Shown: positions 1,380 through 48,520 of the stretch, in pieces
How the letters are laid out: the number at the start of each line of letters is the position of its first letter
How positions within the stretch are numbered: position 1 is the stretch's first letter
Assembly (NCBI RefSeq): GCF_000275825.1
Contig: NZ_JH719942.1
Span: forward strand, 434,240-483,815
Direction of reading: 5' to 3'
From: Saprospira grandis DSM 2844
GTDB lineage: Bacteria > Bacteroidota > Bacteroidia > Chitinophagales > Saprospiraceae
DNA: 49,576 bases
The notes under the pieces: generated by a model
The model's input: the letters and a program-made list of their open reading frames with translations, nothing else
Databases searched by the model: none
Told to the model about the DNA's origin: nothing
Program-made: the position numbers and the translations under genes

Positions 1380-1530
1380 GGGGCTTGCCCGCCCGATGGG
1401 CGGGCCGGGCTGTTTCGCAGCTCGCTATTCGCTCGGCCCTGCGCAAAATTCGCTACGCTCATTTTGCTGGGTCTGCGGCTTCGCCGCCCCCTTTTCCATC
1501 CCTAAGCCTGCGGCGGCTTCGCCGCCTGTA
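1380..1530 (+). repeat. GC-rich structured element (GCE) copy 1, subtype b
   Basis: Starts with GGGGC right after a T7 tract. Hairpins read in order: CCCGCCC/GGGCGGG, then core GCTATTCGCTCGGCCC, stem A GCAAAAT/ATTTTGC, GGTCTG, stem B CGGC-TTC-GCCG and a tail hairpin of GGCGGC/GCCGCC type. The open frame across it is an artefact of high GC. Confidence 0.85.
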
Positions 1531-1543
1531 GGATGGATATATA

Positions 1544-1705
1544 GCTCTAGGTTGAAACCTAGAGCAACAAAAGCGGCCATACTAAACGCAACAAAAATGA
1601 GCCGATGGTTGAAACCATCGGCCCATAACGAATTCTAACAAAAAGCAAAGAAGGACTTTAGCCCGCTCTTTGCATAGCCCCACAACCATGGGCTTCAGCC
1701 CATGG
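1544..1705 (+). repeat. cluster of three REP-like hairpins
   Basis: Three near-perfect palindromes: GCTCTAGGTT-GA-AACCTAGAGC (1544-1565), GCCGATGGTT-GA-AACCATCGGC (1601-1622) and CCATGGGCT-TC-AGCCCATGG (1686-1705). The linker AGCGGCCATACTAAACGC (1572-1589) recurs in diverged form at 4853-4870, so this is a second dispersed repeat family, distinct from the GC-rich element. The TTGAAAC or CTTCAGC hairpin tips resemble REP elements mobilised by REP-associated tyrosine transposases. No such transposase gene is in this window. Confidence 0.7.
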
Positions 1706-1750
1706 GGCCAAAACCAACTAGTTCTGAAGAGGCTTCTTTTCCCTCTCCCC

Positions 1751-1872
1751 AGAAAAAGTTGAGGGACTAATTAAAAGCCGCAGGACCGAAAAACCTAATA
1801 CCTCCTTTTCATATAAAAAACTTCTTATCTGCCCCCTCTCCCGCAAAACCCAAGAAAAAGTTGAGGGACTAA
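1751..1872. repeat. 20-bp direct repeat pair
   Basis: AGAAAAAGTTGAGGGACTAA occurs at 1751-1770 and again at 1853-1872, each followed by TnAAAA. Both lie in the 1289-2154 gap, which otherwise holds only repeat elements and no gene I can support. Confidence 0.75.
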
Positions 1873-1930
1873 TCAAAAATCTTCTGTGCGCCCCTTTTTG
1901 CTGCCTTGGGACAAGCCCCTAGGCGATGAA

Positions 1931-2086
1931 CAGCAGGCGGCTTCGCCGCCATGGCCGAAGGCCAAACGGCCTAGCGATGGTAGGCAGTGCGGCAAAGCCG
2001 CAGACCCAGCAAAAACTTGTTTTTTGCGCAGGGCCGAGCGAACAGCGAGCTGCCGGACGTAGCGCCCGCCGAAGGCGGGAGGCCCC
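1931..2086 (-). repeat. GCE copy 2, subtype b
   Basis: GGGGCC edge at 2086. Stems on the minus strand: CCCGCC-TTC-GGCGGG, stem A GCAAAAA/TTTTTGC, stem B CGGC-TTT-GCCG, tail TGGCC-TTC-GGCCA. Nearly identical to copy 3 over about 115 bp. Confidence 0.85.
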
Positions 2087-2154
2087 AACTACCCATTAAC
2101 ACAACTAAGATTGCTAGTCTTAAAGGTAATAGGCCTACTAGTCTGGAGAAATAC

Positions 2155-2685: not shown

Positions 2686-2804
2686 GGCCTAGCGATGGTA
2701 GGCAGTGCGGCAAAGCCGCAGACCCAGCAAAAACTTGTTTTTTGCGCAGGGCCGAGCGAACAGCGAGCTGCGGAACGTAGCGCCCGCCGAAGGCGGGAGG
2801 CCCC
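2686..2804 (-). repeat. GCE copy 3, subtype b
   Basis: GGGGCC edge at 2804. Same stems as copy 2 and almost base-identical to it, which suggests recent duplication or gene conversion. It fills most of the 2551-2876 gap, in which I see no gene. Confidence 0.85.
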
Positions 2805-4888: not shown

Positions 4889-5003
4889 CTTGCTGACTTT
4901 AGCGAACTGAAGGAGAAAGTCCTTCTTCGCTTTCATTGCTTCTAAGGGCTCAAAACTGCCCAACCGCCAAAGAAGAAAGCCAAAAGAAAAAAGACAGCTG
5001 AGC

Positions 5004-5143
5004 GGCCCAGCGCTGCGGAGGGGTGGCGCGAAGCGCCAGACCAAGGGCGAAACGAAGTGTAGCCCGAAGGGCCGAACAGCCCTGTGAGCCCCGCAGCATA
5101 GCGGCGGCCAAGCGAGGCTATAGCCGAGCTGGCCGCGGGCCCC
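5004..5143 (-). repeat. GCE copy 4, subtype c
   Basis: GGGGCC edge at 5143, 13 bp past the stop of the small ORF downstream of cas3. Core is the subtype c version (ACAGGGCTGT here). Stem A is GGGC/GCCC around an ACACTTCG loop; stem B is GGCGC-TTC-GCGCC. Confidence 0.85.
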
Positions 5144-5156
5144 AAAAATAAGCCCC

Positions 5157-5432: not shown

Positions 5433-8189
5433 TCATAAAAATTGCTGTTCACTAGTCTGAAACTGCTGCTCGTTTAAGCCATCTTCTACACTATATAGGC
5501 TCTCCCAATTCAATAAATAGAGATAACCGTATTCCGATTTTTCTGGATCAATAAAAGGCGCTAACTGCATTCTCAAAGCAGGAGTATCAAATAAAGAGAA
5601 AACAAATTTGGCCATAATAGCCTGCAATTGCTTGAGCAAAATTTGCTGCTGGATATACTGCTCTGCTGGATTTAATATCAAGGCCAGATAAACAGCAAAT
5701 ACTTCAGCCGCATCTACTCCTTCCGGACCAATGGCTGCTGGGCAAAAGCGCTCTAAAAACAATCGTTGGTCTGCACTAAAATTTGCTTGTCCCAAATCAT
5801 TAAATGGCAGGACCAAAGGAACATAAACACTGATATTCTTCTGGCGAATCAACTGAAAATCTTCTTGCGCCTTCTGATAGTCCAATTGCTGCAAATGGAG
5901 CAAATAACTCGCTAGATTTTTATTTAGCAGCCCCTTATTCCACTCATTGAGGGCAAGCATGACCTTTTGATACAGAAAATCAAAATCTTTTTGCTCTAAT
6001 ATTCGACGATAATCCTCTTGGGTAAGATCCTTAGTCATTTTGTAGCGCAAATCATTAGCATAAAGTACCCTGGGCTCATTATGCTTAAACAAGTAGAGTT
6101 CGGCGCCTTCCTTTTTTAGATTACGGTTGATTCTTCCTGCCAATTGCTCATCACTATCTAGCAGCGACTGATTTTTGAAACCAATATCCATATCGATATC
6201 TACTCCCGCCTCTACAACTTGAGTACTGACCACTAAAATCCGTTGATTTCTATACTCTGGATTTTTTAAATAGTGAATAATCGCCTTTCTTCGGGGGCCC
6301 AAAACAGTGCCCGACAACAAAAATATTTGGTCGAAAAAAGTGGCAATTTCCGCATCTTCTTTCATTTTCAGGATAAACTCGGCAGCAGATTTCTTAAAAA
6401 TGAACTCAATAATGCTGTGTACCGATCCTTTGGGTTTAGCCTTACCCAAATCTAACTGGCTATAAGCAACAGAAGCCCTGAAAACCTCTTGCGCCAAATC
6501 GTCTAAACTAATGTTTTCTCTTTCTAAGAGACCAAAATCAAAGCGAAGCCGCTGGGCAAAATTGGCATTTTGAAAAAACCTTGTTTTGGCCTCCTTAAGC
6601 AAATAGTTCACCTTTTCCTGAAGCAGCCCTTTTTCTAAAATTAGTGCTTCTAGCTTTGGCAAGGTCGCCGACATCAGGACAAAGCGCATATTAAAATACT
6701 GCGCATATTTACTAATGAAATAGAATAACTTGTCCCATTGATCAGGTGGATAAGACTGTATTTCGTCTAAAACAACCACCGAATTGGCCAAACGATGTAA
6801 AATGTAGTTATCCGATTTTTTTGGACTTACTAAAAAGTTGAAAAAACGGACATGTGAAAGTAAGACTAAGGGATAATGCAAAAACTGATAATCAATAAAA
6901 TTCATCTGATCTGCCCCATAATTAGCCTGTCCTTCTGCTGTATCTCCAGCCTTTTTTGCCTTAAAATCGGCTTTGGCATGCAGGGCAATCCACTCTTCTT
7001 CTCTCAGGCCTAATAGCTGAACAAGCGTTTCTGAAGTCTGCTCAATGAGGCTAGTAAATGGAAAAACATAATAGACTTTATTGGTCCTTGGGAAGCCTTC
7101 TAGCAAGCGCATTGCCGTTAGGACCGACAAATTGGTCTTGCCTCCACCTGTAGGTGCTTCTATATAGTAAAGCCGCTCTTCTTCTTCTAGAGTTTTTAAT
7201 TGGTCTAAAAGCTCTACCGCCATAGCCTGCCGCAATTGATTCAGCGCCAAAGGCGATTTTTCTTTCGGCAAAACCAATGAAACCTGATTTTCCGCCAACT
7301 CATAAGTCGCTTTATTATAAGCCGTTGATATTTTTAGGGTTTGGGCCAACTCATTTTTTCGGGCTTTAGAAAAAACGCCCAACTCAAAATCTTCGGCAGT
7401 TAGGGATTGCATATATTGAGCTGTACCCAAATAATCTGAAGCAGTAAGCACAGAAAACAATAAGCGACTCAAGGCATAAATAGGGAAATTGTCCTGAGGG
7501 TTTAAGTGATTTTTTTTTAGTTCGCCATAGAGCTCATTTAGGCTAAATAAAGGCCTTTGCTCTTTCTGCGTCCAAGCATAAGCTTCAAAATATAGGCTTA
7601 AGTCAGCCTCTTGCCAGATGTCCCATTGTTCTATCTTGTAATCCTCTAAAGCGCTAGCATGATGTTTTAATATGCTTTGTGAGAAGGCATAAATTAGGCT
7701 AATTAAAGCAAAAAAGTGATCATCCTCTTCTGATTCCTCATCTAGGGAGGTCAAGGCTTGGACCAAATAAAGAACAGCAGATTGTGGTGCATGAAAACTT
7801 TTAAAGCTATGCTTAGCCAATTTTTTGAATTGTGGATTTTTCATTTTCTCCACTTGAAAATTGGGGTTCACCTTTCCAAAATCATGGAAAACAACCGCAT
7901 TCAACATCCATATTTTGGCCCGATTGCCTAATTGAAGCTGTTCTTCTTTAGAAAACGCCTCAAAAACAGCCAAAAGCAAGCGATCGACAACCCCATCTAG
8001 CTGATGGGCTTCAAATAAGCGGCAAGACTGCTGCAAAACGCAATCTATATGCTCCGCTAAGGTTTCTTTATCTTGATTATGGGCCAAGCGATGCGCCAAA
8101 TAAACATCGGCTTGCGCCAAATAATCTGCTGGTCCCTTCACCTCCTGGGCCAAAGTTGCCCAACTTTTTAGTTTAGTAGAGTTGGACAT
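5433..8189 (-). CDS. cas3: CRISPR-associated helicase-nuclease Cas3 (HD + DExH)
   Basis: A 918-residue protein, the target-degrading enzyme of a type I CRISPR system, recruited by the crRNA-guided Cascade complex to nick and unwind DNA. The N-terminal HD nuclease has H47 (AEHID), the HD pair at 102-103 (VVFHDFGK) and HH at 176-177 (ILKHHA). The helicase follows with Walker A at about 344-352 (EAPTGGGKT), DEIQ at 475-478, SAT at 507-509, the motif V region VVEAGVDIDMD and motif VI AGRINRN. HD and helicase are fused in the usual order and all key residues are present, so it should be active. Its start overlaps the cas5 end by 17 bp. It is the last recognisable gene of the cas operon. Confidence 0.95.
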   Translation of the reverse strand: MSNSTKLKSWATLAQEVKGPADYLAQADVYLAHRLAHNQDKETLAEHIDCVLQQSCRLFEAHQLDGVVDRLLLAVFEAFSKEEQLQLGNRAKIWMLNAVVFHDFGKVNPNFQVEKMKNPQFKKLAKHSFKSFHAPQSAVLYLVQALTSLDEESEEDDHFFALISLIYAFSQSILKHHASALEDYKIEQWDIWQEADLSLYFEAYAWTQKEQRPLFSLNELYGELKKNHLNPQDNFPIYALSRLLFSVLTASDYLGTAQYMQSLTAEDFELGVFSKARKNELAQTLKISTAYNKATYELAENQVSLVLPKEKSPLALNQLRQAMAVELLDQLKTLEEEERLYYIEAPTGGGKTNLSVLTAMRLLEGFPRTNKVYYVFPFTSLIEQTSETLVQLLGLREEEWIALHAKADFKAKKAGDTAEGQANYGADQMNFIDYQFLHYPLVLLSHVRFFNFLVSPKKSDNYILHRLANSVVVLDEIQSYPPDQWDKLFYFISKYAQYFNMRFVLMSATLPKLEALILEKGLLQEKVNYLLKEAKTRFFQNANFAQRLRFDFGLLERENISLDDLAQEVFRASVAYSQLDLGKAKPKGSVHSIIEFIFKKSAAEFILKMKEDAEIATFFDQIFLLSGTVLGPRRKAIIHYLKNPEYRNQRILVVSTQVVEAGVDIDMDIGFKNQSLLDSDEQLAGRINRNLKKEGAELYLFKHNEPRVLYANDLRYKMTKDLTQEDYRRILEQKDFDFLYQKVMLALNEWNKGLLNKNLASYLLHLQQLDYQKAQEDFQLIRQKNISVYVPLVLPFNDLGQANFSADQRLFLERFCPAAIGPEGVDAAEVFAVYLALILNPAEQYIQQQILLKQLQAIMAKFVFSLFDTPALRMQLAPFIDPEKSEYGYLYLLNWESLYSVEDGLNEQQFQTSEQQFL

Positions 8190-8946
8190 ACTGTTGTTCT
8201 TCCTTTAAAAAGTAAAGTTGTGGGGGCTGAAAATCGGGCTTTAGCAGATGGCTAGTATAGCTAAAATCTTCTAAAATATACTGTTGTAGTTCTTGGTCAA
8301 AATCAACCGGAAGGCGCTCAAAGTAAAGGCTTCCTCCACTACTAAAGTTGGCGCCAAATCGGCTTCTTCGGTTAGGCGCTAGGGCGCCTGCTTGGCCCAA
8401 TAGGCGCTGACCTTCTTTTCTAAATAGGCTACGGATTCGATATTGTTTATCGGCTATTTTTTGCTCCCAATCATAGCTTTGGTAATTTTCCCAATAGGCC
8501 GCATGTTCATTTTTGCCAAAATAGGGTAAATAATAAGCTTGCTGTTGAGCCAGGCGCTGATCGAGTTTTTGGGCCAGCTCATCGCCTTCTTCGATAAGAA
8601 AATATAAGCGATAGGCTGGGGCAATGAGCGTAGACTCTACTAAAATAAGCGTACTGTTTTTTTGGCCAAAGCCCGTTTTATTGACGTACCTAATATTGGT
8701 TTTGGCAAAATGGCAGTTTTCGGCATCTAAAGGAGCAATAGCCATTTTGAGATGGCTTAGCTGCTGATAATAAGCGGGCAGTTCTCCTTCTTTTTGGTAA
8801 CCCTCTAGGCCCAAAATGGCCCCGACTAAGCCCAAAGCCGCAGGCCGATGCAAAAAATTGTAGCTCAGACTAATATTATTATTGGTCTCTGGCTTTCTAA
8901 AAAAGCCAAATTGAGCTTTTAAATCTATAGATATAATTTTAGTCAT
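8173..8946 (-). CDS. cas5: Cas5 Cascade subunit
   Basis: A 257-residue Cas5-family protein (RAMP fold), which binds the crRNA 5' handle in Cascade. The N-terminus shows the typical strand followed by HRPAALGLVGAILGLEGY, a family hallmark (glycine-rich helix after the first strand). It lies between cas7 and cas3 and overlaps cas3 by 17 bp, implying coupled translation. A GC-rich element of about 140 bp separates it from cas7, which is unusual inside an otherwise tight operon. Subtype is inferred as I-B from the gene set. Confidence 0.88.
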   Translation of the reverse strand: MTKIISIDLKAQFGFFRKPETNNNISLSYNFLHRPAALGLVGAILGLEGYQKEGELPAYYQQLSHLKMAIAPLDAENCHFAKTNIRYVNKTGFGQKNSTLILVESTLIAPAYRLYFLIEEGDELAQKLDQRLAQQQAYYLPYFGKNEHAAYWENYQSYDWEQKIADKQYRIRSLFRKEGQRLLGQAGALAPNRRSRFGANFSSGGSLYFERLPVDFDQELQQYILEDFSYTSHLLKPDFQPPQLYFLKEEQQYVQLY

Positions 8947-8986
8947 CTTTTCTGTGTGAATAAGTTTAGGAGTGTGGTGACCATTT

Positions 8987-9123
8987 GGCCCAGCGCTGCG
9001 GAGGGGTGGCCGAAGGCCAGACCGAGGGCGAAACGAAGTGAAGCCCGAAGGGCCGAACAGACCTGTGAGCCCCGCAGCATAGCGGCGGCCGACCTAGGCG
9101 AAGCCTAGCCGGCCGCGGGCCCC
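8987..9123 (-). repeat. GCE copy 5, subtype c, inside the cas operon
   Basis: GGGGCC edge at 9123, 11 bp past the cas7 stop; the tail ends 40 bp before the cas5 start. Core ACAGGTCTGT; stem A GGGC/GCCC; stem B GGCC-TTC-GGCC. It would be transcribed with the operon as a large intercistronic structure. Confidence 0.85.
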
Positions 9124-9134
9124 AAAAAATAATC

Positions 9135-10034
9135 TTAAAGCGCTAAAAGCTGAGCATGCTCCATCAATCCCTTAATGCTTTCTTTGGGAATATTGGTATA
9201 GATCTCTAGCTTTTCGGTGGCAGCTAGTACATCTGGGCGCTGCAAAATTCTACTTAGTGCGCTAAGATCTAGTACTTTATCCTCTGTCATTTCGATCAGT
9301 TCTACAAAAGAGGGCAAAACCATCTGCTCGCCTTCCTTGAGCTCTAGCCAAATCATCAGCTCATTTTCACAGCCAATTTTAGAGGCCGAATCATAATAAG
9401 TTACCCCTCTTCTTAACGCTTCTTTGAGTTTGCGGACATCCTCCTGACTAAGGAGCTGCAAGTTGGGCAATTGCTCCTTAAAGCTTTCAATATTTTTGGG
9501 GTTGAGGGAAAAATGGTGCACATAATGGCCCTCTTGCAAGCGAGACTGTGTCCCTAAGGTCGTTTGCATGCTATCACTTTTGCTCGAGTTACGGAAAGGC
9601 GACATAATCTGCTCGCTATAAATCATTTGCTCGGGAAAGCGATTGAGGGCAGGCGTAATCTGACAGCTGCCATGAATAGAAAGGTTGGCATTTTTGCTGG
9701 CATAAGTACCACCAAATAGGCGCACATCAAGGCAAGTGAATAAATTTTCGAGCACCTTTTTCTTATCCTTAGCCGTTTTTGCATCAAAGTGATAAGCATA
9801 GGTTTCATCCAAGTTTCGAGGTTGGAAGTCCTTATTATGGCTACTAAAATAGAATACTCGCTCCCCTAAGGCCTGCTTAAAATAGTTGCGGATAGAATAC
9901 TTGAGCACCTTATCTGTGGCGTAAACTGTTCCATTGGGCAAACGACGAGGTTGCTGACTAAAGTCGGCATTATAGCTAGCATTGAGGGCTTTGACCATAA
10001 CGCAGCCAAAAACACGATTTTTAAAGTTAGACAT
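9135..10034 (-). CDS. cas7: Cas7 Cascade backbone subunit (Csh2-like)
   Basis: A 299-residue Cas7-family protein that would form the filament along the crRNA spacer. Diagnostic segments are the N-terminal strand NRVFGCVMVKALNA, the TDKVLKYSIRNYF segment (equivalent to the TDvrLKR-iRdy motif of Csh2/Cst2 proteins), DVRLFGGTYA near residue 105 and NLSIHGSCQITPALNRF, all arranged as in subtype I-B Cas7. It starts 60 bp after the end of cas8b. Confidence 0.9.
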   Translation of the reverse strand: MSNFKNRVFGCVMVKALNASYNADFSQQPRRLPNGTVYATDKVLKYSIRNYFKQALGERVFYFSSHNKDFQPRNLDETYAYHFDAKTAKDKKKVLENLFTCLDVRLFGGTYASKNANLSIHGSCQITPALNRFPEQMIYSEQIMSPFRNSSKSDSMQTTLGTQSRLQEGHYVHHFSLNPKNIESFKEQLPNLQLLSQEDVRKLKEALRRGVTYYDSASKIGCENELMIWLELKEGEQMVLPSFVELIEMTEDKVLDLSALSRILQRPDVLAATEKLEIYTNIPKESIKGLMEHAQLLAL

Positions 10035-10094
10035 ATCTTTATGTATTTACATCTCTAAACAATAGAGATAATTTAATGGATGGTAGAATTGATT

Positions 10095-10475
10095 TTAATC
10101 GGCAGCACTAGAGAAAAGCCTATTTTTGGCAAAAAAGCCCGCTAGAAACAGCGGCTGTCCTGCCTTAATTTTGTGCTCATTGGGGTAAGTCAGCAACAAA
10201 GCGGCTAGGCGCTCAAACTTTTTGGTAAAATTTTGATGCTTGTATCGGGCGAAGCGCTCACTAACAACGGCTTGTAGACCCGACATTTTTTGCTGCTGCA
10301 AATAAGCTTCTAGGCGTTGGTATTTATGGCCAGCGGCTTGACTTTTTGATTCTAAGTAAGCCGCTAGTTGTCCCGCCGCAAAAAGCATAGCCTCTAGCGG
10401 GATCTCCTCTTTATAGTCCTCGCTATTCAGCATATTGTCTAGTTGTTCCTGATAGGCTTGCAGTTGATTAGCCAT
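10095..10475 (-). CDS. possible internal Cas11b small subunit within cas8b
   Basis: An in-frame ATG at 10475 inside cas8b (MANQLQAYQEQL...) would give a 126-residue, mostly helical polypeptide. In characterised I-B and I-D systems the Cas11 small subunit is made from an internal start in the large-subunit gene, with about this length and fold. The ATG follows an A-rich stretch (AAAACAACTACT), acceptable for Bacteroidota initiation. This is inference from family knowledge. Confidence 0.35.
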   Translation of the reverse strand: MANQLQAYQEQLDNMLNSEDYKEEIPLEAMLFAAGQLAAYLESKSQAAGHKYQRLEAYLQQQKMSGLQAVVSERFARYKHQNFTKKFERLAALLLTYPNEHKIKAGQPLFLAGFFAKNRLFSSAAD

Positions 10476-12086
10476 AGTAGTTGTTTTTACAGATTGATTT
10501 GGGTTAAATTTATCATAGAGTGAAAAAAGGATATTGAGTTTCTGCACCAATTTCCATTCTTCTACTCGATCTTTTAGGTCAAGCTGAATGGCCGATAAAC
10601 AAAGCGATTTAAATTCTGCTTGCTGAAAGGCAATAGCTTTAGATTTATAGATAAAATCGTAAAGAGCTTGTTGGTATTTAGCGATCAGTGCCGCTCGGTC
10701 TGCCGCTATTTTATCAGGCGTCTCAAAGAAGAATGAGGTTCGGAAAAACCGTTGATCAAAGAGGATCGGCAAAAGTTTTTCTTGCAACTCAAAGCGATTG
10801 ACTAACTGAATGGGCCGAGTATCTCGTTGCAGCAAATCACTGACGATCCAGCTTTTTCCATCCTCTTCCAAAAAGTAATTAAAGCGCTCTACATAATCGA
10901 GTTCATGTACAAAGAGTCCATCTTTGGTCCGGGCAAAAAAGAGGAGATAAAAGTTAGTTAGACTTTTGTCCTTATTTTTTTGCCTTTTGACTAATCCCTT
11001 GAGCAGCTCAGCATAACTCTCTATGCTTCCATCTTCGGCAAAAAGGGCTAGACTTTCTGCCTGCAATTCTTCTTCATAAATAAAGAGCGGCAAAGGATTA
11101 GGGACCAATTTTCGGTTTGTAAAGGCCTCTTTGCCCATCAACAATTTTTGAAATTGATCCAAAGCATGCGCCTCCTTCAAATGAATCCGATAAGGCAATT
11201 TAAAGTAGGCTGTTCGATGCAGCAAAAAAGGCTTTTTGCCATCATAACCATTATAGAAGTTATTGCTGCCATAGACATCCTTTTCATCTTTGGCGCTAGC
11301 CTTTTGTCTATTGTAACTATCGCTATTAAATAGCTTTTGGTCCAAATAAGCTCTATGCGCCTGCTCAAATTTTGATTGTTCTACATTGAGATAAAAACAG
11401 ATATAATCGCTTTCAGCTAAAGGTTCTACAACTTGTAGCTTTAGCTTAAGATCTTTAACCTTATTCGCCAAAGCCGCTTTTTCCTCTTTCTTAGCCGTTT
11501 TTAGCGCCCCTTCTAGTTCGGCCAGATCGGCTGATAACAACTCGTACTTTTCTTGCCGCTGACGCAAAGCAGTTTCTAATAAAAAAACAAAAGGATAACC
11601 TCCACGTAAGTCTTCTGCTGGAGCAAAAAGCGCCTGAAAGGCCTTAGATTCGGCGGAAAACTCCTGCTGCTCGGCCTCTGTCAAAAAACTAGCGGCTTTT
11701 TCAAAGTAGCTCCCAAAGCGATCAAAAATTTGACTTTTTTCTTTTTGCTGATTGGCCAAATATTTCTTTCCCCCCAAATAGTTTTCTCGTTTGAAGGCCA
11801 CTGCAAAGAGCTGGGCACTATGAATAGCTTTAGAAGGAGCATCTAAGCCTTTATTCGCATCCACCATCCAAGCATTTTCTTGCCGTTCGGCCAATTTCTC
11901 CCAGCCCTCGGCTGCAGAGGAGGCCTTAGCATGAATATATTGCCATTGGTGCTCCTTTAGATCTAAGGAGATTTGCTGTTCGGCATCAATATTAACCAAA
12001 AAGTGAATACCTGCTTTCAAGCGCTGCCCTCTAGCCAAAATAGCCGCTGGCAGCTTATCCATAAACTCAATTATTTCTTGTACCAT
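10095..12086 (-). CDS. cas8b: Cas8b large Cascade subunit (Csh1-like)
   Basis: A 663-residue protein placed as the large subunit by position (between cas6 and cas7) and size. Large subunits diverge strongly; the sequence shows no enzymatic motif, a charged coiled coil near residues 190-225 and a helical C-terminal third, as in Cas8b. In the family it recognises the PAM and recruits Cas3. Its start is only 5 bp after cas6. The C-terminal helical part has an internal Met that could initiate a separate small subunit (see 10095-10475). Confidence 0.8.
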   Translation of the reverse strand: MVQEIIEFMDKLPAAILARGQRLKAGIHFLVNIDAEQQISLDLKEHQWQYIHAKASSAAEGWEKLAERQENAWMVDANKGLDAPSKAIHSAQLFAVAFKRENYLGGKKYLANQQKEKSQIFDRFGSYFEKAASFLTEAEQQEFSAESKAFQALFAPAEDLRGGYPFVFLLETALRQRQEKYELLSADLAELEGALKTAKKEEKAALANKVKDLKLKLQVVEPLAESDYICFYLNVEQSKFEQAHRAYLDQKLFNSDSYNRQKASAKDEKDVYGSNNFYNGYDGKKPFLLHRTAYFKLPYRIHLKEAHALDQFQKLLMGKEAFTNRKLVPNPLPLFIYEEELQAESLALFAEDGSIESYAELLKGLVKRQKNKDKSLTNFYLLFFARTKDGLFVHELDYVERFNYFLEEDGKSWIVSDLLQRDTRPIQLVNRFELQEKLLPILFDQRFFRTSFFFETPDKIAADRAALIAKYQQALYDFIYKSKAIAFQQAEFKSLCLSAIQLDLKDRVEEWKLVQKLNILFSLYDKFNPNQSVKTTTMANQLQAYQEQLDNMLNSEDYKEEIPLEAMLFAAGQLAAYLESKSQAAGHKYQRLEAYLQQQKMSGLQAVVSERFARYKHQNFTKKFERLAALLLTYPNEHKIKAGQPLFLAGFFAKNRLFSSAAD

Positions 12087-12091
12087 CTCCC

Positions 12092-12766
12092 CTATTTTAA
12101 AGCGCCAAATCCAATTCCCGTGCTATTCCCCAAGCCTGTCAACCAAGCCAAACGCAGGGCTTCTGCCGAGCCTTTAATCTCTACTGGACACAAACTGCCC
12201 TTATTCGCTATGCCCTTATACTTCAGTAAGCGCACTTTAGCCTGTTCATGATCTCGTAAAAAACGCAGCTTTACCTCCTGATTCGCCAAGCCCAAAGCAG
12301 CCAACTTAGCCCGAAACTTTTCCGTCAAAAGCGCATCGGCATCTTCCTGCTCATAGGTTAAAAAATCATAGCCCTTGGCCTGAGAACGAGGCCGTTTCAA
12401 TAAAAGGGGACTGGCCATCCAAAACTTATGTGTCCCATCTTCAAAGTCTGGACAAGGCTGCATGCTCATTTCCCGCACCCGCATTCCACTAATAAACTCC
12501 TGATCCTCTTGCACCCCCGCAATAAAGCGTTCGGCCTGTTCCTCCTCATAAAAAGAGATAAACCAGTCGGCCCCTTTTCCAAAGTCTAAGCTTTTTTTGT
12601 CTCGACTCAATCGCCCAGCTTGCAAACTAGAAAAAGAAAAAAGAGCCTGCCCTCCATGCCAATCATTATTAGGGCCCAACCATTTATGAACAGCCCCAAC
12701 AACAGCAGGCAAATGCCCAAAAGGAACGGCTTCTTTGGCGGCACTACAGCTCAAGTAGATTCTCAT
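12092..12766 (-). CDS. cas6: Cas6 crRNA-processing endoribonuclease
   Basis: A 224-residue Cas6. It would cut the precursor CRISPR RNA inside each repeat, leaving an 8-nt ATTGAAAC handle. Visible signs are the N-terminal ferredoxin-like strand (MRIYLSCSA), a His at 27 in GAVHKWLG in the usual catalytic helix position, and the C-terminal glycine-rich loop GLGNSTGIGFGALK. It is the first gene of the cas operon, 5 bp ahead of cas8b and downstream of the co-directional array. Confidence 0.88.
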   Translation of the reverse strand: MRIYLSCSAAKEAVPFGHLPAVVGAVHKWLGPNNDWHGGQALFSFSSLQAGRLSRDKKSLDFGKGADWFISFYEEEQAERFIAGVQEDQEFISGMRVREMSMQPCPDFEDGTHKFWMASPLLLKRPRSQAKGYDFLTYEQEDADALLTEKFRAKLAALGLANQEVKLRFLRDHEQAKVRLLKYKGIANKGSLCPVEIKGSAEALRLAWLTGLGNSTGIGFGALK

Positions 12767-12893
12767 AGGTCCTTGTTTTATTCGTTTAAAGAATTGCCCA
12801 AACTTACCCCCTAACTATCCACCCTATGCAGACAATTGATAGCTAAGGGCAAAAAAAATCAGTTTTTCTTTCAAAAAACCGAAGCCTACAAAC

Positions 12894-12901
12894 CAAATAT
12901 A
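12894..12901 (-). promoter_or_regulatory. probable cas operon promoter -7 box
   Basis: TATATTTG on the minus strand matches the Bacteroidota TAnnTTTG box and is identical to the box at the array leader. A transcript would start near 12887, about 120 nt before cas6. No clear -33 TTTG is seen at the usual distance. The rest of 12767-13015 is AT-rich and shows no gene. Confidence 0.4.
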
Positions 12902-13015
12902 GTATGGCAAAAGAGGCTTTGTGTTTTATTTTTCTGTCTTTTAGGTTAGGCGAAATAATAATGACCCAATAATTGAATTGCAACTTATTATTATTCTTTT
13001 TTTTATTTTTTTCTT

Positions 13016-13153
13016 GGGGCCCGCGGCCGGCTCGGCTTCGCCTCGGTCGGCCGCCGCTATGCTGCGGGGCTCACAGGTCTGTTCGGCCCTTCAGGCTACA
13101 CTTCGTTTCGCCTTCGGTCTGGCCTTCGGCCACCCCTCCGCAGCGCTGGGCCA
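13016..13153 (+). repeat. GCE copy 6, subtype c
   Basis: GGGGC edge after a T-rich tract. Core ACAGGTCTGT, stem A AGGC/GCCT (copies 4 and 5 have GGGC/GCCC, a compensatory change), stem B GGCC-TTC-GGCC. Lies between the cas promoter region and the array terminator. Confidence 0.85.
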
Positions 13154-13177
13154 ATCCCAGCCTTGCCCTCAGCCAAC

Positions 13178-13211
13178 AAAAAGCCCCAAAGCAGTATGAC
13201 TCTGGGGCTTT
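13178..13211 (-). terminator. CRISPR array terminator
   Basis: On the minus strand a 12-bp stem AAAGCCCCAGAG / CTTTGGGGCTTT (one G-U pair) with an 8-nt loop, then a T run. It lies just past the leader-distal end of the array and would separate array and cas transcription. Confidence 0.7.
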
Positions 13212-13220
13212 CTCTTGCTA

Positions 13221-13250
13221 TAAAACTGTAGTTGAAGATGATATTAAAGG
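13221..13250 (-). repeat. degenerate terminal CRISPR repeat
   Basis: The plus-strand half GAAGATGATATTAAAGG-like region matches the repeat in 15 of its last 18 positions, while the other half is lost. It ends exactly 35 nt (one spacer length) before the first intact repeat at 13286. On the minus strand this means an intact 5' half and a decayed 3' half, as is usual for the leader-distal last repeat. Confidence 0.7.
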
Positions 13251-13285
13251 GTAACCGACATGAGCCAACAGATTTCCACTTGGTA

Positions 13286-15433
13286 GTTTCAATTCCGTAA
13301 AGGTGCAATTAAAGGTGTAAGGACGTGTGGCGTTATACAAAAGCTTTGCTTGTTTCAATTCCGTAAAGGTGCAATTAAAGGGCTTTGGCCTTTATACTAC
13401 CCAGGCTTGCCTAGACAAGTTTCAATTCCGTAAAGGTGCAATTAAAGGAGCTTGAACTTATGTCACAAAATGAGCTAGAAAAACGTTTCAATTCCGTAAA
13501 GGTGCAATTAAAGGTGGCCCAAACTATTGCCAGACTAATTGCCGATAATTAGTTTCAATTCCGTAAAGGTGCAATTAAAGGCCTTGGTTGGTATTCCCTC
13601 CGCTTTATGCTTATTGGGTTTCAATTCCGTAAAGGTGCAATTAAAGGAGCTAGATACTAAGCTAGTGGCCTACTACAACCGTGGTTTCAATTCCGTAAAG
13701 GTGCAATTAAAGGCAGCAAGGTTTACGGCCTTGCTTCGCTGGTTACCTCCTAGTTTCAATTCCGTAAAGGTGCAATTAAAGGAACAGCCATCAAGATAAA
13801 GCTAGAACGAGATGGCTGGTTTCAATTCCGTAAAGGTGCAATTAAAGGAAAGGCCATTGGGGCCATCCTACAAAAAGGAGACTGGTTTCAATTCCGTAAA
13901 GGTGCAATTAAAGGAGGGGTTATCCCGCACGTAGATAGACCCGCTTTTGCGTTTCAATTCCGTAAAGGTGCAATTAAAGGTATTATAGCGGTTGAATTTG
14001 TGAGGTTAATGCTGTGTTTCAATTCCGTAAAGGTGCAATTAAAGGAGCAAAAAGGCTTTCGTTTATAGAAGATATAGACATGTTTCAATTCCGTAAAGGT
14101 GCAATTAAAGGGCTTTGCCTTGCTTAATAGCACGTTTTCGCTCCTTTGTTTCAATTCCGTAAAGGTGCAATTAAAGGGGCCGCCAAACTATCCAGTTTGA
14201 TGATGATACCCTGTTTCAATTCCGTAAAGGTGCAATTAAAGGGGGCCATCAATGCCCCAACTTTACCCCATCCAAAAAGTTTCAATTCCATAAAGGTGCA
14301 ATTAAAGGAAAGAAATTGTAAGTGGACATTTCGACCTAGAAAAGTTTCAATTCCGTAAAGGTGCAATTAAAGGGGGCCCGCTCAAGTCTTTGGCAGGTGC
14401 TTTGGCTAAGTTTCAATTCCGTAAAGGTGCAATTAAAGGACAAAGGCAATGAAGCAAATAGAACGATGTCTCAATGTTTCAATTCCGTAAAGGTGCAATT
14501 AAAGGGATCAGAAGCAAATCGGCCGCCCCATCGCTATCTAGTTTCAATTCCGTAAAGGTGCAATTAAAGGTTAGAGCAAGTCAAGGGGCTTAGGCCTCAA
14601 GTGGAGTTTCAATTCCGTAAAGGTGCAATTAAAGGGAGTTACTTGCAAAAGGCTAAGGCAGATGCCAAAACAGTTTCAATTCCGTAAAGGTGCAATTAAA
14701 GGCTTGGCCTTCAGCTCTTCCTCTAGCTGCTCAACCCGCGTTTCAATTCCGTAAAGGTGCAATTAAAGGAAAAATCAAAGCGCCGCTTTGGCGTATTCGC
14801 CAAAATGTTTCAATTCCGTAAAGGTGCAATTAAAGGAAATCGACCTAGAGAGCGACAAAGCGGAGCAAGCGGTGTTTCAATTCCGTAAAGGTGCAATTAA
14901 AGGGTTGAATCGCCTAGTAGCTGGTTCTACATTCTACTTGTTTCAATTCCGTAAAGGTGCAATTAAAGGGTTCACTAAAACCCAAGCAAAATGCAAGTAG
15001 TTAAATTGTTTCAATTCCGTAAAGGTGCAATTAAAGGTAGTGCGGTTCATTACTACACCTTTCTCGAACTGCTGTTTCAATTCCGTAAAGGTGCAATTAA
15101 AGGAATTTTAGGATTGTCAAGATTGACGATGAGTATTTCTTGTTTCAATTCCGTAAAGGTGCAATTAAAGGAAAATAACTGTATATGAGTATGCTAACTA
15201 GACTGTAGTTTCAATTCCGTAAAGGTGCAATTAAAGGTCAAATGGTTTTAGACCGTTTACCTTTTCTAGTGGAGTTTCAATTCCGTAAAGGTGCAATTAA
15301 AGGCGAAGGGACCTGCAAAAATTGCGGCTCAACATTTAGTTTCAATTCCGTAAAGGTGCAATTAAAGGCTCTGCGACCAACTCCACCCGCTTCGAGGTGT
15401 ATTGTTTCAATTCCGTAAAGGTGCAATTAAAGG
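13286..15433 (-). CRISPR. CRISPR array, 33 intact repeats of 30 bp, 32 spacers
   Basis: I counted 33 copies of a 30-bp repeat; the minus-strand form begins CCTTTAATTGCACC and ends GGAATTGAAAC. Spacers are 35-39 bp, mostly 36. All repeats are identical except the one at 14279-14308, which has one substitution (plus-strand CCG to CCA, position 14290). With the degenerate repeat at 13221 the total is 34 repeats and 33 spacers. The ATTGAAAC end, the decayed repeat at the left and the promoter box at the right all indicate minus-strand transcription with the leader above 15434. The repeat is of the weakly structured type common in subtype I-B. Short ORFs across the array are artefacts. Confidence 0.97.
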
Positions 15434-15633
15434 CCGTTCAAATATAGCCTTTTTATTCCCTAAAAATGGGCCTTTCCAGCTCTTTTTCAGCCAGCAAAAT
15501 CTGTCGACCTCCAATAACCGGAAAACCCTTGGGGATCGACAGATTCATAAACCATTATAAAACAAACAGTTAGAAATTTATTGTAATATATCCCCACTCT
15601 CCGCCCTCTTTTTAGGCGAGGTCGACAGATTTA
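15434..15633 (-). promoter_or_regulatory. CRISPR leader
   Basis: About 200 bp of AT-rich sequence next to the leader-proximal repeat. It contains three copies of a TCGACAGATT motif: 15497-15511 and 15618-15632 form a perfect 15-bp inverted repeat (AAATCTGTCGACCTC / GAGGTCGACAGATTT), and 15536-15545 is an internal 10-bp copy. No gene is seen between 15434 and 15866. Confidence 0.65.
15439..15446 (-). promoter_or_regulatory. array promoter -7 box
   Basis: TATATTTG on the minus strand, 5 bp before the first repeat, so transcription would begin about at the first repeat base. It matches the TAnnTTTG consensus; the T-rich stretch upstream is only a weak -33 candidate. Confidence 0.5.
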
Positions 15634-15640: not shown

Positions 15641-15780
15641 GGCCCAGCGCTGCGCAGGGGTGGCGCAAAGCGCCAGACCAAGGGCGAAACGAAGTGTAGC
15701 CCGAAGGGCCGAACAGACCTGTGAGCCCCGAAGCATAGCGGCGGCCAAGCGAGGCGATAGCCGAGACGGCCGCGGGCCCC
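15641..15780 (-). repeat. GCE copy 7, subtype c
   Basis: GGGGCC edge at 15780 next to AAAATAATAA. Core ACAGGTCTGT, stem A GGGC/GCCC, stem B GGCGC-TTT-GCGCC. It borders the leader and is the outermost subtype c copy on this side of the locus. Confidence 0.85.
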
Positions 15781-20050: not shown

Positions 20051-20176
20051 GGGGCCTCCGCTGCGGCTTCGCCTTGCGGCGCTACGTTTCAGGGCTCGCA
20101 GGTCTGCTCGGCCCTGCAGCCGCCTGCGGCGGCTTGGGTCTGCGGCTTCGCCGCCCCCTTGCACATCGCTAGGCCA
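20051..20176 (+). repeat. GCE copy 8a, subtype a
   Basis: GGGGC edge after TGTTTT, 80 bp past the oxidase gene. Core GCAGGTCTGC, stem A GCCGCC-TGC-GGCGGC, stem B CGGC-TTC-GCCG, tail ATCGCTAGGCC. Confidence 0.85.
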
Positions 20177-20284: not shown

Positions 20285-20422
20285 TCGGCTGAGGGATGGT
20301 AGGGGGTGGCCGCAGGCCAGACCAAGCTTTTTGAGCAAAGCGAAAAAAGCGATGGGCCGAGCAGACCTGCGAGCCCCCGCAGAGCCCGACCCGAAGGCCC
20401 AAAGGGCCGAAGGGGCAGCCCC
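20285..20422 (-). repeat. GCE copy 8b, subtype a
   Basis: GGGGC edge at 20422 before AAATTATC. First stem GGCCC-TTT-GGGCC, core GCAGGTCTGC, stem A GCTTTTT/AAAAAGC, stem B GGCC-TGC-GGCC. Confidence 0.8.
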
Positions 20423-24746: not shown

Positions 24747-24878
24747 AGGCCCAAAGGGCCGCAGGCTGAGGGGCTGTAGCAGGGCCGCGAAGCGGCAGAC
24801 CGAGGCCGCAGGCCGAAGGGCCGAGCAGACCTGCGAGCTGCGTAATGGCCCGACCCGCCCGCAGGGCGGGGCAGCCCC
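24747..24878 (-). repeat. GCE copy 9, subtype a
   Basis: GGGGC edge at 24878 beside A7. First stem CCCGCCC-TGC-GGGCGGG, core GCAGGTCTGC, stem A GGCC-TGC-GGCC, stem B CCGC-TTC-GCGG. Confidence 0.85.
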
Positions 24879-26415: not shown

Positions 26416-26583
26416 GGGGCTGCCCCTGCGGCCTTCGGCCTTGGGTCGGGCCATTTCGCAGCTCGCAGGTCTGCTCGGCCCTGCAGCCCTACGGGCTTTG
26501 GTCTGCCGCCTTTGGCGGCCCTGCTACAGCCCCTCAGCCGCGTCGCTTCGCTCCTTGAGGCGGCTGCGCCGCCTAAAGGGCCC
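26416..26583 (+). repeat. GCE copy 10, subtype a
   Basis: GGGGC edge after TTTATTT. First stem GGCC-TTC-GGCC, core GCAGGTCTGC, stem A AGCCC-TAC-GGGCT, stem B CCGCC-TTT-GGCGG, tail GGCGGC/GCCGCC. It would form the 5' leader of the next gene; the reading frame through it falsely extends that gene upstream. Confidence 0.85.
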
Positions 26584-27784: not shown

Positions 27785-27911
27785 GGCGGCGCAGCCGCCG
27801 CAGGCTGAGGGATAGTAGGCAGTGGCCGCAGGCCAGACCGAGCAGGCGAAGCCTGTGAAGGGCCGAGCGAACAGCGAGCTGCCGCATAGCCCGACCCGAA
27901 GGGGCAGCCCC
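27785..27911 (-). repeat. GCE copy 11, subtype b
   Basis: GGGGC edge at 27911 beside A6. Core GCTGTTCGC, stem A CAGGC-TTC-GCCTG, stem B GGCC-TGC-GGCC, tail GGCGGC-TGC-GCCGCC. Confidence 0.85.
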
Positions 27912-32852: not shown

Positions 32853-33000
32853 GGGGCTGCCCCGCCCTACGGTCGGGTCGGGCTGTGTCGGGGCTCGCAG
32901 GGATGCTCGGCCCTGCGCTTTTTCGCTATGCTCAAAAGCTGGGTCTGCGGCTGCGCCGCCCCCCTATCCATCCCTCAGCCGAGGCGGCTGCGCCGCCTAA
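32853..33000 (+). repeat. GCE copy 12, subtype a variant
   Basis: GGGGC edge after TGTTTT, 23 bp upstream of the 413-residue protein's start. Core GCAGGGATGC, stem A GCTTTT/AAAAGC, stem B CGGC-TGC-GCCG, tail GGCGGC-TGC-GCCGCC. Tail-to-tail with copy 13; the divergent 32830-33270 region is otherwise empty. Confidence 0.85.
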
Positions 33001-33097: not shown

Positions 33098-33238
33098 CAG
33101 GCGGCGAAGCCGCCGCAGGCTTAGCTGCCTGTAAGGGTGCCCCAAAGGGGCAGACCGAGGCGGGCCCAGCCCGCCGAGGGCCGAGCAGACCTGCGAGCCC
33201 TGCAAGGGAGCGACCTGAGCGAAGCGAGGGGAAGCCCC
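33098..33238 (-). repeat. GCE copy 13, subtype a
   Basis: GGGGC edge at 33238 beside A6, 32 bp ahead of the vWA-like lipoprotein gene. Core GCAGGTCTGC, stem A GGCGGGC/GCCCGCC, stem B CCCC-TTT-GGGG, tail GGCGGC-TTC-GCCGCC. Confidence 0.85.
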
Positions 33239-36635: not shown

Positions 36636-36773
36636 GGGGCTTCCGCAGCAAGCTGCGGCGCTACGTTTCGGGGCTCGCTATTCGCTCGGCCCTTCGCTTT
36701 TCGCTGCGCTCAAAGCTCGGTCTGGCCTGACGGCCACCCCTGCACATCGCTAAGCCGTTTTGGCCCAAGGGCC
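36636..36773 (+). repeat. GCE copy 14, subtype b, inside the tubulin/actin-like operon
   Basis: GGGGC edge 7 bp after the tubulin-like stop, following T7. First stem CCGCAGC-AA-GCTGCGG, core GCTATTCGC, stem A GCTTT/AAAGC, stem B GGCC-TGAC-GGCC. Confidence 0.85.
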
Positions 36774-41620: not shown

Positions 41621-41803
41621 GGGGCTGCCCCGCCCTTTGGGCGGGTCGGGCCATTTATTCCCGTTGGTCATCGAACTGGCGCCCCTATAGGGGCTGGTTG
41701 TCGCAGCTCGCAGGTCTGCTCGGCCCTGCGCGGGCTACGCCCGCTGGGTCTGCCGCCTTCGGCGGCCCTGCTACAGCCCCTCAGCCTGCGGCGGCTTTGC
41801 CGC
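41621..41803 (+). repeat. GCE copy 15a, subtype a, interrupted by 45 bp
   Basis: First stem CCCGCCC-TTT-GGGCGGG, core GCAGGTCTGC, stem A GCGGGC-TAC-GCCCGC, stem B CCGCC-TTC-GGCGG, tail GGCGGC-TTT-GCCGCC. Compared with copy 10, about 45 bp (41657-41701) are inserted between CCATTT and CGCAGC, containing the palindrome GCCCCTATAGGGGC. Confidence 0.8.
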
Positions 41804-41940
41804 CTGCAAAACCGTTTACTGCAGCCTAAAGGCCGCAGCCAATCTTGTTGGTCCTCATTTTTCTTGCCGCAGGAGCTTAAAAGCGCCTGCTTCTGATTTT
41901 TATGGAGGGCAGCTATTTTCAGGTCCAGCGGATTTTGATG

Positions 41941-42083
41941 GCCGAAGGCCATTCGGCCTAGCGATGCGGCGGGGTGGCCCGCAGGGCCAGACCGAAGGCG
42001 AAACGAAGTGTAGCCTGAAGGGCCGAGCAGACCTGCGAGCCCCAAAGCGTAGCGCCGCAAGGCGAAGCCGCAGCGGAGGCCCC
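41941..42083 (-). repeat. GCE copy 15b, subtype a
   Basis: GGGGCC edge at 42083 beside A5. Core GCAGGTCTGC, stem A AGGC/GCCT, stem B GGCCC-TGC-GGGCC. Tail-to-tail with copy 15a. The whole gap 41583-42195 holds these two copies and no gene I can support. Confidence 0.85.
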
Positions 42084-48100: not shown

Positions 48101-48318
48101 AATACAAATACCAAGGCGGATTAGGCTACTACGAAAGCACCAAAGATGCCGCTACGCACTTCTTTTTCTCCTATCTGAGCAAAGGAACCTATGTCTTCGA
48201 ATACCCTGTTCGAGTGGCCCAAAAAGGCGACTTTAGCAACGGAATTAGCAGCATTCAATGCATGTACGCCCCCGAGTTTTCTTCACACTCTCAAGGTATC
48301 CGCCTAGAAGTGAAATAA
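42196..48318 (+). CDS. alpha-2-macroglobulin family protein
   Basis: A 2040-residue exported protein with signal MKRYPLWLLFSLLISTQMFSQ. Residues to about 600 are a long helical/TPR-like and beta N-terminal region; the MG2-type motif FFSDRAIYRPGQTIYFKGI lies near 597. MG domains continue to about 1250, including a Pro/Ala-rich low-complexity loop (AAPPPAPIADSG). The segment RTNLNETVFFFPQLRTDKEGNVILSF precedes the thioester domain, where YPHECSEQLFSRYYANSLA carries the CxEQ thioester (Cys about 1490). An alpha/alpha-toroid and receptor-like domain follow. Bacterial members trap proteases at the envelope. No lipobox and no adjacent pbpC, both common in proteobacterial homologues. Confidence 0.9.
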   Translation: MKRYPLWLLFSLLISTQMFSQNYEKAWLKIDSLDRQGLPESALKKTDSLLQIIRKAEAGPARTAHYVKGLLYYNKFQGSLEEDGLVKSIYRLEEEMQKAEGSEKALLQSMVAQLYHEYLSNHYYKFSDRSKVNELELKDIRTWDIERISEQAFALYWASLSDPAALELELKQFAPILSRTDFDADLQPTLYELLAQRALNFFENENSYLSQPAYQFYVESPTLFAVGQEFVGQKIESRDSFSHKWQTLKLYQKIVARSLERKSPLVLLQFELRRLKWTYSQSINEDKDALYLAALTALEEKYEEQAAVAEIIFAKATYYKQLGQGYSPSQPDPKARWALKVADSIATSIIADYPKSFGAKQAQSLKVELAQKHLKLRIERYLPLNQAGLIRLDYKNLSQVHLRLIKLSESELERFQNIRYEYQEQIDFLAKRDPVYRQSHQLIDSGDFQRHGTELMIPAQTDPGIYVVQLSANADFSYAKNANSIAVVQLTNLGLIQRQEKGLYEFIVVNRWTGEPQKGVKVEFREQQYNRLSKKYNWKRLKSVLTDGMGYALSKNVKRDDYYSYNIRVEKGKDFLLPESSFSNYDYEKPRENGSTEIRFFSDRAIYRPGQTIYFKGIALYSKGEQYKVVKNQEYAISLFDVNGQKLEELRLTTNEYGSLQGSFTAPTTGLMGQMSIRNTSLGYYSSHSIRVEEYKRPKFEVNFLPQEEAYKLNDQVTVLAQAEALAGPAISEAKFSYRVVREVRFPYWRYWGWNPWLGQSQEITKGEGITDEKGVAKIDFEAIPDKSISLDKQPVFNYTVYVDVTDINGETRSSQTAVRVGAIALDLSVNLKSELDQGQKLGKLKLNSRNLNGGFEPALLELSWERLEEPKNIYVKRQWEQPDYYSLGEQEFKAAFPHIAYKQEDKSRNWKVIKTQAKNKINTAEQKEIDLQKLLKKWPAGYYRLSVKTTDKYGQEIQLEREFRLFNSQTKKANVQDILFANQKSFTVEPGETIEFALASATDFPVLFERDQKGKGISQRNWLQLGEKWNKQSYTVQEDDRGNLYFRLIGLRYNRNFSQRINVYVPHSNKKLNIELSTFRDKLQPGQEERWELKITGPDKAAAEAELVASLYDASLDALVSHNWGLSLYGSYYGSSNWSTNCMSVEHASLVAAQDWNLSYSYPSHKWSSLNWQGFSFYDWGFSPRRMYKSHSRATGRAEKKEVQVLGEATMEEVMIDDTAGKAAPPPAPIADSGFAEAPEEPSDKDAGDLGDVKVRTNLNETVFFFPQLRTDKEGNVILSFTMNEALTRWRLMLLAHTQDLKVGQKEAFVQTQKDLMVVPNAPRFFRQGDKMEFSAKINSLVDKQLEGEAQLLLFDAYSMQAIDAEWANKNNRQSFSLKAKGATALSWKLEIPSNWTTPVVHRIVAKAGQFSDGEESSLPVLSNRMLVTESMPLPVRGKTDKNFEFKRMQELSKSNTLEHYSYTLEFTPNPAWYAVQSLPYLMEYPHECSEQLFSRYYANSLAANVANSHPKIKRVFEAWKTAGSKALESNLSKNQELKNALLEETPWVLQAQSEAQQKKHLGVLFDLNRMGQEQKQALRKLADRQLGNGGFPWFPGGRDSWYISQYIVEGMGHLQVMGVAQENEPMSQDMIIKAVRYIDNQLLDQYDRLLATAKRQEDPEAYLKKDHLGYMAIHYFYARSFFPKVELKNRRLREARAYYTGQMQTYALKKSIYMQGMIALALHRDENLPKVQEQIIKSLKERALKSEEMGMYWQSPHGYFWYELPIERHCLMIELFDEVANDQETVEALKTWLLKAKQTTHWKTTKATAAACYALLARGENYLVDSQPVDIKLGGELLDQKALNPEAGTGYIKKRWSAKEIEPKMAQVEIKNPNASVAWGAIYWQYFEQLDKIESFEETPLQLKKQLFKQVKGDRGLELQPITAEKGLEVGDLVMVRIELRVDRDMEYVHLKDQRAAAFEPTNVLSQYKYQGGLGYYESTKDAATHFFFSYLSKGTYVFEYPVRVAQKGDFSNGISSIQCMYAPEFSSHSQGIRLEVK

Positions 48319-48340
48319 ACAAGGCCCTTTAGCATTTTTT

Positions 48341-48378
48341 ACCCCTCATCAGGATCTTCTGATGGGGGGTCTTTTTTT
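48341..48378 (+). terminator. terminator of the alpha-2-macroglobulin gene
   Basis: Stem ACCCCTCATCAG / CTGATGGGGGGT (one G-U pair), loop GATCTT, then T7. The T run is directly followed by the GGGGC edge of GCE copy 16. Confidence 0.85.
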
Positions 48379-48520
48379 GGGGCCTCCTGCCTGCGGCAGG
48401 CGCTACGCTTTGGGGCTCGCAGGTCTGCTCGGCCCTTCAGGCTACACTTCGTTTCGCCTTCGGTCTGGCCCTGCGGGCCACCCCGCCGCATCGCTAGGCC
48501 AAATGGCCTTCGGCCATTTT
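48379..48520 (+). repeat. GCE copy 16, subtype a
   Basis: First stem CCTGCC-TGC-GGCAGG, core GCAGGTCTGC, stem A AGGC/GCCT, stem B GGCCC-TGC-GGGCC, tail hairpin AAATGGCC-TTC-GGCCATTT followed by T, itself terminator-like. Confidence 0.85.

Follow-up and report, generated by a model that had tools for sequence, protein, structure and literature searches.

The hallmark of the REP/RAYT systems is a palindrome of 20-40 bp that carries a GTAG or CGTC tag. A second group of small bacterial repeats, the MITEs, measure 70-300 bp, have no coding capacity and end in terminal inverted repeats (TIRs) of 15-30 bp (PMC3733652, in the part available to us); bacterial MITEs also include motifs that fold in RNA (PMC2229807, available portion). 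Among insertion sequences, the available text of PMC3942029 describes some ISKra4-group elements that insert upstream of promoters, and for the related p-MULT 3 group it proposes that unequal recognition of the two inverted repeats orients the insertions.

The element described here was met in a stretch of 49,576 nucleotides (the window) from Saprospira grandis DSM 2844 (G000; 4.495 Mb genome). We did not find a prior description of it among the matches listed in the open-licence literature, and the available part of a report on S. grandis WHT (PMC10508125) contains no mention of "repeat", "mobile" or "transpos". A preliminary description of the window had listed eighteen copies with two covarying stems and had offered three options: a structured RNA, a mobile hairpin element or an mRNA-end element.

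Results

The eighteen copies share one closed fold

A regular expression for the core matched exactly 18 copies in the window, and a covariance model (built from 17 of these copies) returned 18 likewise, so that all the listed copies are present. A 17-base element pattern had 52 matches in the genome against 0 for the reversed control, and chance is excluded as the source of the copies. The element runs from GG-GGCNN to NNGCC, is 109-166 nt long in the window, and lies on the minus strand in 10 of the 18 cases. Its parts follow in the order T-run, GG, P1, hairpin P2, P3a, internal loop, P3b, P4, P5a/P5b, GGTCTG, P6, P3b', P3a' and P1'. The outer stem P1 closes a junction of hairpin P2 and the long stem P3, which bears the mini-hairpin P4 and the hairpins P5 and P6. 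The copies are as follows.

1380..1508, plus: copy 1; P1 GGCTT/AAGCC; P3b partly unpaired
1968..2086, minus: copy 2; P1 GGCCT/AGGCC; without T-run
2686..2804, minus: copy 3; P1 GGCCT/AGGCC; without T-run
5004..5143, minus: copy 4; P1 GGCCC/GGGCC; edge at 5143 read by eye and the same in the covariance model
8987..9123, minus: copy 5; P1 GGCCC/GGGCC
13016..13152, plus: copy 6; P1 GGCCC/GGGCC
15641..15780, minus: copy 7; P1 GGCCC/GGGCC; P5 different in G001 and G005
20051..20175, plus: copy 8; P1 GGCCT/AGGCC; inner P3b-P6 block different in G001 and G005
20287..20422, minus: copy 9; P1 GGCTG/CAGCC; faces copy 8
24764..24878, minus: copy 10; P1 GGCTG/CAGCC; upstream of ffh (SRP54); same site in G001, G005 and G002
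26416..26539, plus: copy 11; P1 GGCTG/CAGCC; downstream of ffh; same site in G001, G005 and G002; P5 differs among G000, G001 and G005
27803..27911, minus: copy 12; P1 GGCTG/CAGCC
32853..32980, plus: copy 13; P1 GGCTG/CAGCC
33118..33238, minus: copy 14; P1 GGCTT/AAGCC; faces copy 13
36636..36756, plus: copy 15; P1 GGCTT/AAGCC, but GGCCT/AGGCC in G001 and G005 (a two-sided change with a nearly unchanged interior)
41621..41786, plus: copy 16; P1 GGCTG/CAGCC; extra hairpin insert; directly after a terminator-like hairpin and T-run (by eye)
41955..42083, minus: copy 17; P1 GGCCT/AGGCC; faces copy 16
48379..48500, plus: copy 18; P1 GGCCT/AGGCC; directly after a terminator-like hairpin and T-run (by eye)
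48372..48378, plus: T-run at the 5' edge of copy 18 (example)
48381..48385, plus: P1 5' arm GGCCT of copy 18 (example)
48496..48500, plus: P1 3' arm AGGCC of copy 18 (example)

The core ending in CGGCCC and the GGTCTG were confirmed in all 18 copies. The A/T tract reported beside GGGGC is a T-run before it in 16 of the 18 (interrupted in 13016), and is absent from 1968-2086 and 2686-2804. Both stems of the preliminary description exist and vary among copies as it had said (stem A is P5a/P5b and stem B is P6), but the two-stem layout did not hold, since the element is one closed fold whose outer stem had been overlooked. P1 pairs in 18/18 window copies; the copy search required the ending CTNNGCC, which leaves just the two N positions as an independent test.

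Covariation was judged by pair counts with shuffle and slide controls. RNAalifold on the 17 window copies (alignment A1, without copy 41621) gave 28 pairs, 16 of them with two-sided changes. Across 92 copies from four genera (Saprospira, those of G014 and G018, and Phaeodactylibacter luteus), 94.9% of pair cells pair, as against 73.8% in shuffles and 30-55% in slides, and 21 of the 28 pairs change on both sides. The covariation score was 0.457 versus 0.147 in the control, in an alignment fitted to the model. The covarying pairing that had been claimed is thus borne out in both sets, and the junction sequence is invariant. Folded one at a time, 6 copies gave unremarkable values (z from -0.77 to -1.79), so the evidence for the structure is comparative. 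By eye, the P5 ends of Saprospira copies look correlated beyond normal pairing, being mostly TGC..TG or TTC..TC.

Several other features lie around the copies. Behind copy 18, positions 48501-48522 (AAATGGCCTTCGGCCATTTTT) form a hairpin with a T-run that could terminate transcripts crossing this copy. Hairpins with a TTGAAA loop at 1535-1625 (GGTTGAAACC) represent another dispersed type, which is also seen beside other copies. The upstream flank of 11 copies (e.g. L038 9703) carries a further repeated module, GGTCGTCGAACTG..CTTGTTGTCG, which encloses a hairpin, and a similar module sits inside copy 41621. Downstream, 8 copies are flanked by a common GCTCA..TCTTTTTTC..TTCGGC stretch (e.g. window 4958-5003) that ends at P1' and on the opposite strand resembles a lysine-rich protein end. 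A CRISPR array (33 repeat-unit copies reported) with Cas3, Cas7 and Cas6 genes occupies 5433-15457. G001 has nothing at this place that corresponds to the segment between about 1570 and 15641. That segment is bounded by copy 15641 on the right and begins shortly after copy 1380 on the left, with slightly different edges in G005. Compared with 41621-41955, locus L079:11332-15092 shows about 3.4 kb extra with open reading frames in G001 and G005, between the plus and minus copies, and the left edge of the shared sequence is at most 2 bases from GGGGC.

The element is dense, intergenic and oriented

We sampled the genome with 40 pieces of 20 kb (800 kb in total; 39 from contig C2 at near-regular steps and 1 from the 56.6-kb contig C1) and obtained 253 covariance-model matches at E<=0.01. 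Extrapolated, this amounts to about 1,400 copies, and the element would make up about 4% of the genome if the extrapolation holds. To our knowledge, such density is unusual for a structured repeat in a bacterium. The reported density of one copy per 2.8 kb holds for the window, while copies in the samples are on average about 3.2 kb apart.

Placement was assessed with a simple ORF caller written for the analysis, by which 234/251 copies are intergenic. A T occupies position -2 in 99% of copies. Neighbouring copies alternate in orientation in 185/219 cases in the G000 samples, and with a looser pattern in contiguous stretches in 128/168 (G000) and 133/169 (Lewin). Of the gaps of 150 bp or longer, 251 in all, a single copy lies in 137, a plus-minus pair in 31, a minus-plus pair in 1 and an odd set in 2. 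The T-side is the side nearer to a gene in 92/137 single-copy gaps. Across the copies, its median distance to a gene is 21 bp at 3' ends and 88 bp at 5' ends. Close plus-minus pairs without an intervening gene have the same P1 type in just 3/32.

Copies adjoin the 5' ends of genes as well as the 3' ends, and convergent, divergent and tandem gaps contain them alike; this does not bear out the mRNA-end element. A terminator or promoter element was also rejected, as the orientation is independent of gene direction. The base composition does not show the layout of an intrinsic terminator: the T-run precedes the element on its 5' side, and the 20 positions directly after its 3' end are not T-rich. 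Spacing to a promoter is not fixed; of 96 copies that face a 5' end, 22 have TAnnTTTG at varying distances (20-160 nt) from the T-side. Motifs beyond P1' on the 3' side were only modestly enriched (e.g. GACC[AT]N?AAA in 14/248, about 3 at random).

The element occurs in relatives

We searched 40 genomes, including that of the window, scoring at most 85 candidates per genome, and seven match. G000 and its congeners G001, G002 and G005 have at least 85 matches each (G001 is taken as S. grandis Lewin, NC_016940.1, and G005 as S. grandis WHT, both identities being inferred). Divergent copies occur in G014 and G018, which belong to other genera (42 and 143 of 150 scored), and G012 has a single weak match. 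None were found among the candidates (at most 85) scored in G003 and in G004, which are placed in the Saprospira genus. A collection scan added P. luteus, among the matches listed; its copies (17 examined) are shorter and have no separate P6. Matches to the core pattern in a viral collection, among those listed, were taken as chance.

The ffh gene is flanked by copies at the same two sites in G000, G001, G005 and G002. Read by eye, this locus has no copies in G003, G004, G012 and G018, and an upstream copy in P. luteus.

Copies in two other genera are bounded by TIRs

In P. luteus and G018, the core is enclosed in elements with related 20-bp TIRs. The TIR GGGCGYAAACCARATTGTCG gave 535 matches at <=3 mismatches (control 1), and GGGTGYATTTCAWWWTGTCG gave 174 at <=2 mismatches to the search pattern (control 0); both bound the same element core. 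Target duplications of 8-9 bp flank 24/31 distinct P. luteus elements (>=8 bp, one mismatch allowed; 16 with 8 exact letters), a count in which young copies are favoured because most loci were picked by exact TIR. They also flank 12/18 elements in G018, whereas mismatched flank pairs gave 1/2858 and 0/306. The TIR-bearing elements of P. luteus and G018 are therefore MITEs, and of the three options first offered it is the mobile hairpin element that these TIRs and duplications uphold.

We observed that the core outlasts the TIRs in P. luteus. Of 44 cores, 40 match every fixed position, while 28/44 left TIRs and 26/44 right TIRs are no better than noise (>=6 mismatches); detection of these elements needed a recognisable core, and the TIRs of longer variants may fall outside the searched stretch. 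In 249 Saprospira copies, both known TIRs were at null level and inverted matches between the flanks showed no excess. As these copies fail the TIR test, we infer their descent from a MITE from the shared core.

One core-less TIR in P. luteus abuts the stop of a truncated transposase frame. The ISKra4 match of this frame (4.7e-20) falls short of the curated cut-off, since the frame is a fragment; Pfam gave no match. The mobiliser was probably an ISKra4-type transposase, as suggested by this one truncated gene beside the same TIR. Of ten genomes searched, only P. luteus and G018 have ISKra4 matches, the six Saprospira-genus genomes searched have none, and an intact autonomous partner with these TIRs was not found in the ten. 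In G018, locus L443 (contig C207) holds an ISKra4 transposase frame of 366 aa bounded by its own inverted ends, CTGTGTGTATAACAAATTGCAC (by eye), which differ by eye from the element TIRs. IS1595 was rejected as mobiliser; it has no match in G000 or P. luteus, and these TIRs are seen at a single one of the five IS1595 loci in G014 and G018, the broken gene L421 next to a copy.

In P. luteus the alternation of orientation is weak, if present at all (24 neighbours alternate, 16 have the same orientation). The T-side is nearer the gene in 3/11 copies with both TIRs, 10/16 with one and 10/12 with none, a weak comparison because the boundaries were set differently between TIR classes.

Sites are stable between strains and hairpins are replaced

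From 171 G000 copies mapped by their flanks to Lewin, 39 did not have both flanks mapped. The remaining 132 sites comprise 100 of the same length, 24 longer (one of them, in the window, was read), 7 shorter and 1 apparently empty, which proved to be a truncated copy. Eight of the 16 shortened or apparently empty sites (8 per direction) were read. In Lewin, 3/5 held a whole element and 2/5 a truncated one; in the other direction 3/3 showed element sequence, and the unread sites keep at least 118 bp between the flanks. Thus no clean insertion or loss relative to Lewin was seen at the sites mapped and read.

The strain comparison had 121 rows, of which 36 had no orthologue partner, leaving 85 pairs; 5 of these had no readable P5, leaving 80. 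The orthologous flanks are 94.5% identical. P5 (stem A) was identical in 24 of the 80, differed by 1-2 edits in 11 and by 3-5 in 8, and differed by at least 6 edits in 37. Of the 46 P5s counted as changed (small edits included), 23 have a Lewin version that recurs letter for letter elsewhere among the sampled copies. Stems of 4 or more pairs are present in 42/46 on the G000 side and 44/46 on the Lewin side. Among 256 changed pair cells in the 85 pairs, 223 are two-sided and still paired, 9 one-sided and still paired, and 24 broken. Much of the between-strain covariation is therefore replacement of whole hairpins and not stepwise compensatory mutation.

G-U pairs are no commoner than A-C mispairs

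We counted mispairs outside P5a, with the caveat that the model favours Watson-Crick pairs. Alignment A2 (the best 150 of the 253 matches) has 4 G-U and 11 A-C in 3551 cells, A4 has 10 and 13 in 2845, and A3 has 16 and 25 in 1963. Fourteen tRNAs of these genomes, called by ARAGORN, contain 16 G-U in 314 pairs; only the G-U figure of this set is useful, because ARAGORN demands pairing. A G-U no commoner than A-C speaks for upkeep at the DNA level rather than for RNA selection, and the RNA-level selection on the stems that had been suggested was not borne out. P5a has a constant G-U (150/600 cells in A2). The stems are probably kept by DNA-level maintenance, against which stand this constant G-U and the Watson-Crick bias of the model. 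Rfam gave 0 matches at gathering score in the window, and below it only weak ones to unrelated families (E up to 1).

Discussion

We consider it likely that the element is a MITE-derived, non-autonomous family of the Saprospiraceae, with a conserved folded DNA core, stems kept at the DNA level and a possible role at gene boundaries. An origin as a tiny mobile element is suggested by the relatives; the folded core would have been retained after the ends required for jumping had gone. P. luteus and one more genus, in which TIRs and target duplications remain, would represent the earlier stage, and a Mutator-type ISKra4 transposase, judging from the truncated gene beside the same end, probably moved the element. 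Saprospira would represent the later stage: its ends are undetectable, no new insertion separates the strains at the sites mapped, and the core persists beside genes with the T-rich side more often toward the nearer gene. The block replacement suggests that short-tract conversion or template switching transfers entire hairpins from one copy to another, and the scarcity of G-U intermediates suggests that imperfect arms are repaired or purged. Persistence and orientation together suggest that the folded DNA may have a role at gene boundaries, for example in protein binding or insulation. As a counterpoint, gene conversion alone could keep the cores alike without function.

A more specific version, which we advance tentatively, is that a retired transposon core has been domesticated and that its DNA folds bracket transcription units. 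The oriented copies would mark gene boundaries, and P5 would be a hypervariable slot that a templated DNA process keeps rewriting, for the most part with sequence from other copies and almost always so that a new hairpin results.

A purely selfish repeat without function, kept alike through conversion and oriented by an insertion preference for T-runs or promoters, is somewhat unlikely. It would fit the block replacement among copies, and also the promoter-upstream insertion of some ISKra4-group elements and the oriented insertion proposed for the p-MULT 3 group in the available part of PMC3942029. However, T/A asymmetry is slight in the 107 element-free gaps (left half TTTT 293, AAAA 272; right half TTTT 256, AAAA 290), the nearby TIRs would have to escape conversion, and in P. 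luteus the T-side is more often the side nearer a gene in the classes with fewer TIRs, though this point is weak given the differing class boundaries.

It seems improbable to us that the family is a multicopy structured RNA, either non-coding or part of an mRNA, that is selected at the RNA level. The strong covariation in eight helices over four genera, the invariant junction and the P5a G-U, which is at home in RNA, all speak for it. Set against these are the mispair counts outside P5a beside the G-U share of the tRNAs, the occurrence in either direction relative to genes with convergent and divergent gaps alike, and the Rfam result. REP/BIME-like elements moved by a Y1 (RAYT) transposase are very improbable: orientation alternates as in BIMEs (PMC2817692, available part) and G000 has one Y1 gene, but element-rich G018 has no Y1_Tnp match at E<=0.001, Y1 genes occur in 33/40 genomes with or without the element, and the written strand of 251 elements contains GTAG twice but CTAC 175 times, so that the other strand often, not always, has GTAG.

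With the MITE-derived family as the preferred reading, the inside of a mobile element is seen to survive the loss of its ends, and the Saprospira strains offer a natural system in which hairpins are swapped wholesale at known sites. The results also carry a warning that covariation in multicopy elements can stem from block replacement, and the comparison of G-U with A-C mispairs is a cheap discriminator of RNA and DNA upkeep.

Among known systems, we know of no counterpart of the folded core in ISKra4 insertion sequences, and unlike these the element has no coding capacity. The truncated ISKra4-type gene that adjoins the same TIR is a likeness to this group (p-MULT 4, Mutator superfamily), as is the preference of some members for promoter-upstream sites (PMC3942029, available part). 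With REP/BIME palindromes the element shares its intergenic location, alternating orientation and hundreds of copies; it differs in being a multi-helix element of 109-166 nt rather than 20-40 bp, in not co-occurring with Y1 genes and in having TIRs in relatives. It resembles the MITEs RUP, NEMIS/Correia, ERIC, YPAL and Nezha in size, lack of coding capacity, TIRs and folding motifs. Unlike those MITEs, it has a multibranched covarying core that outlives the TIRs, reaches about 1,400 copies (extrapolated), is oriented at gene boundaries and has its hairpins replaced between strains.
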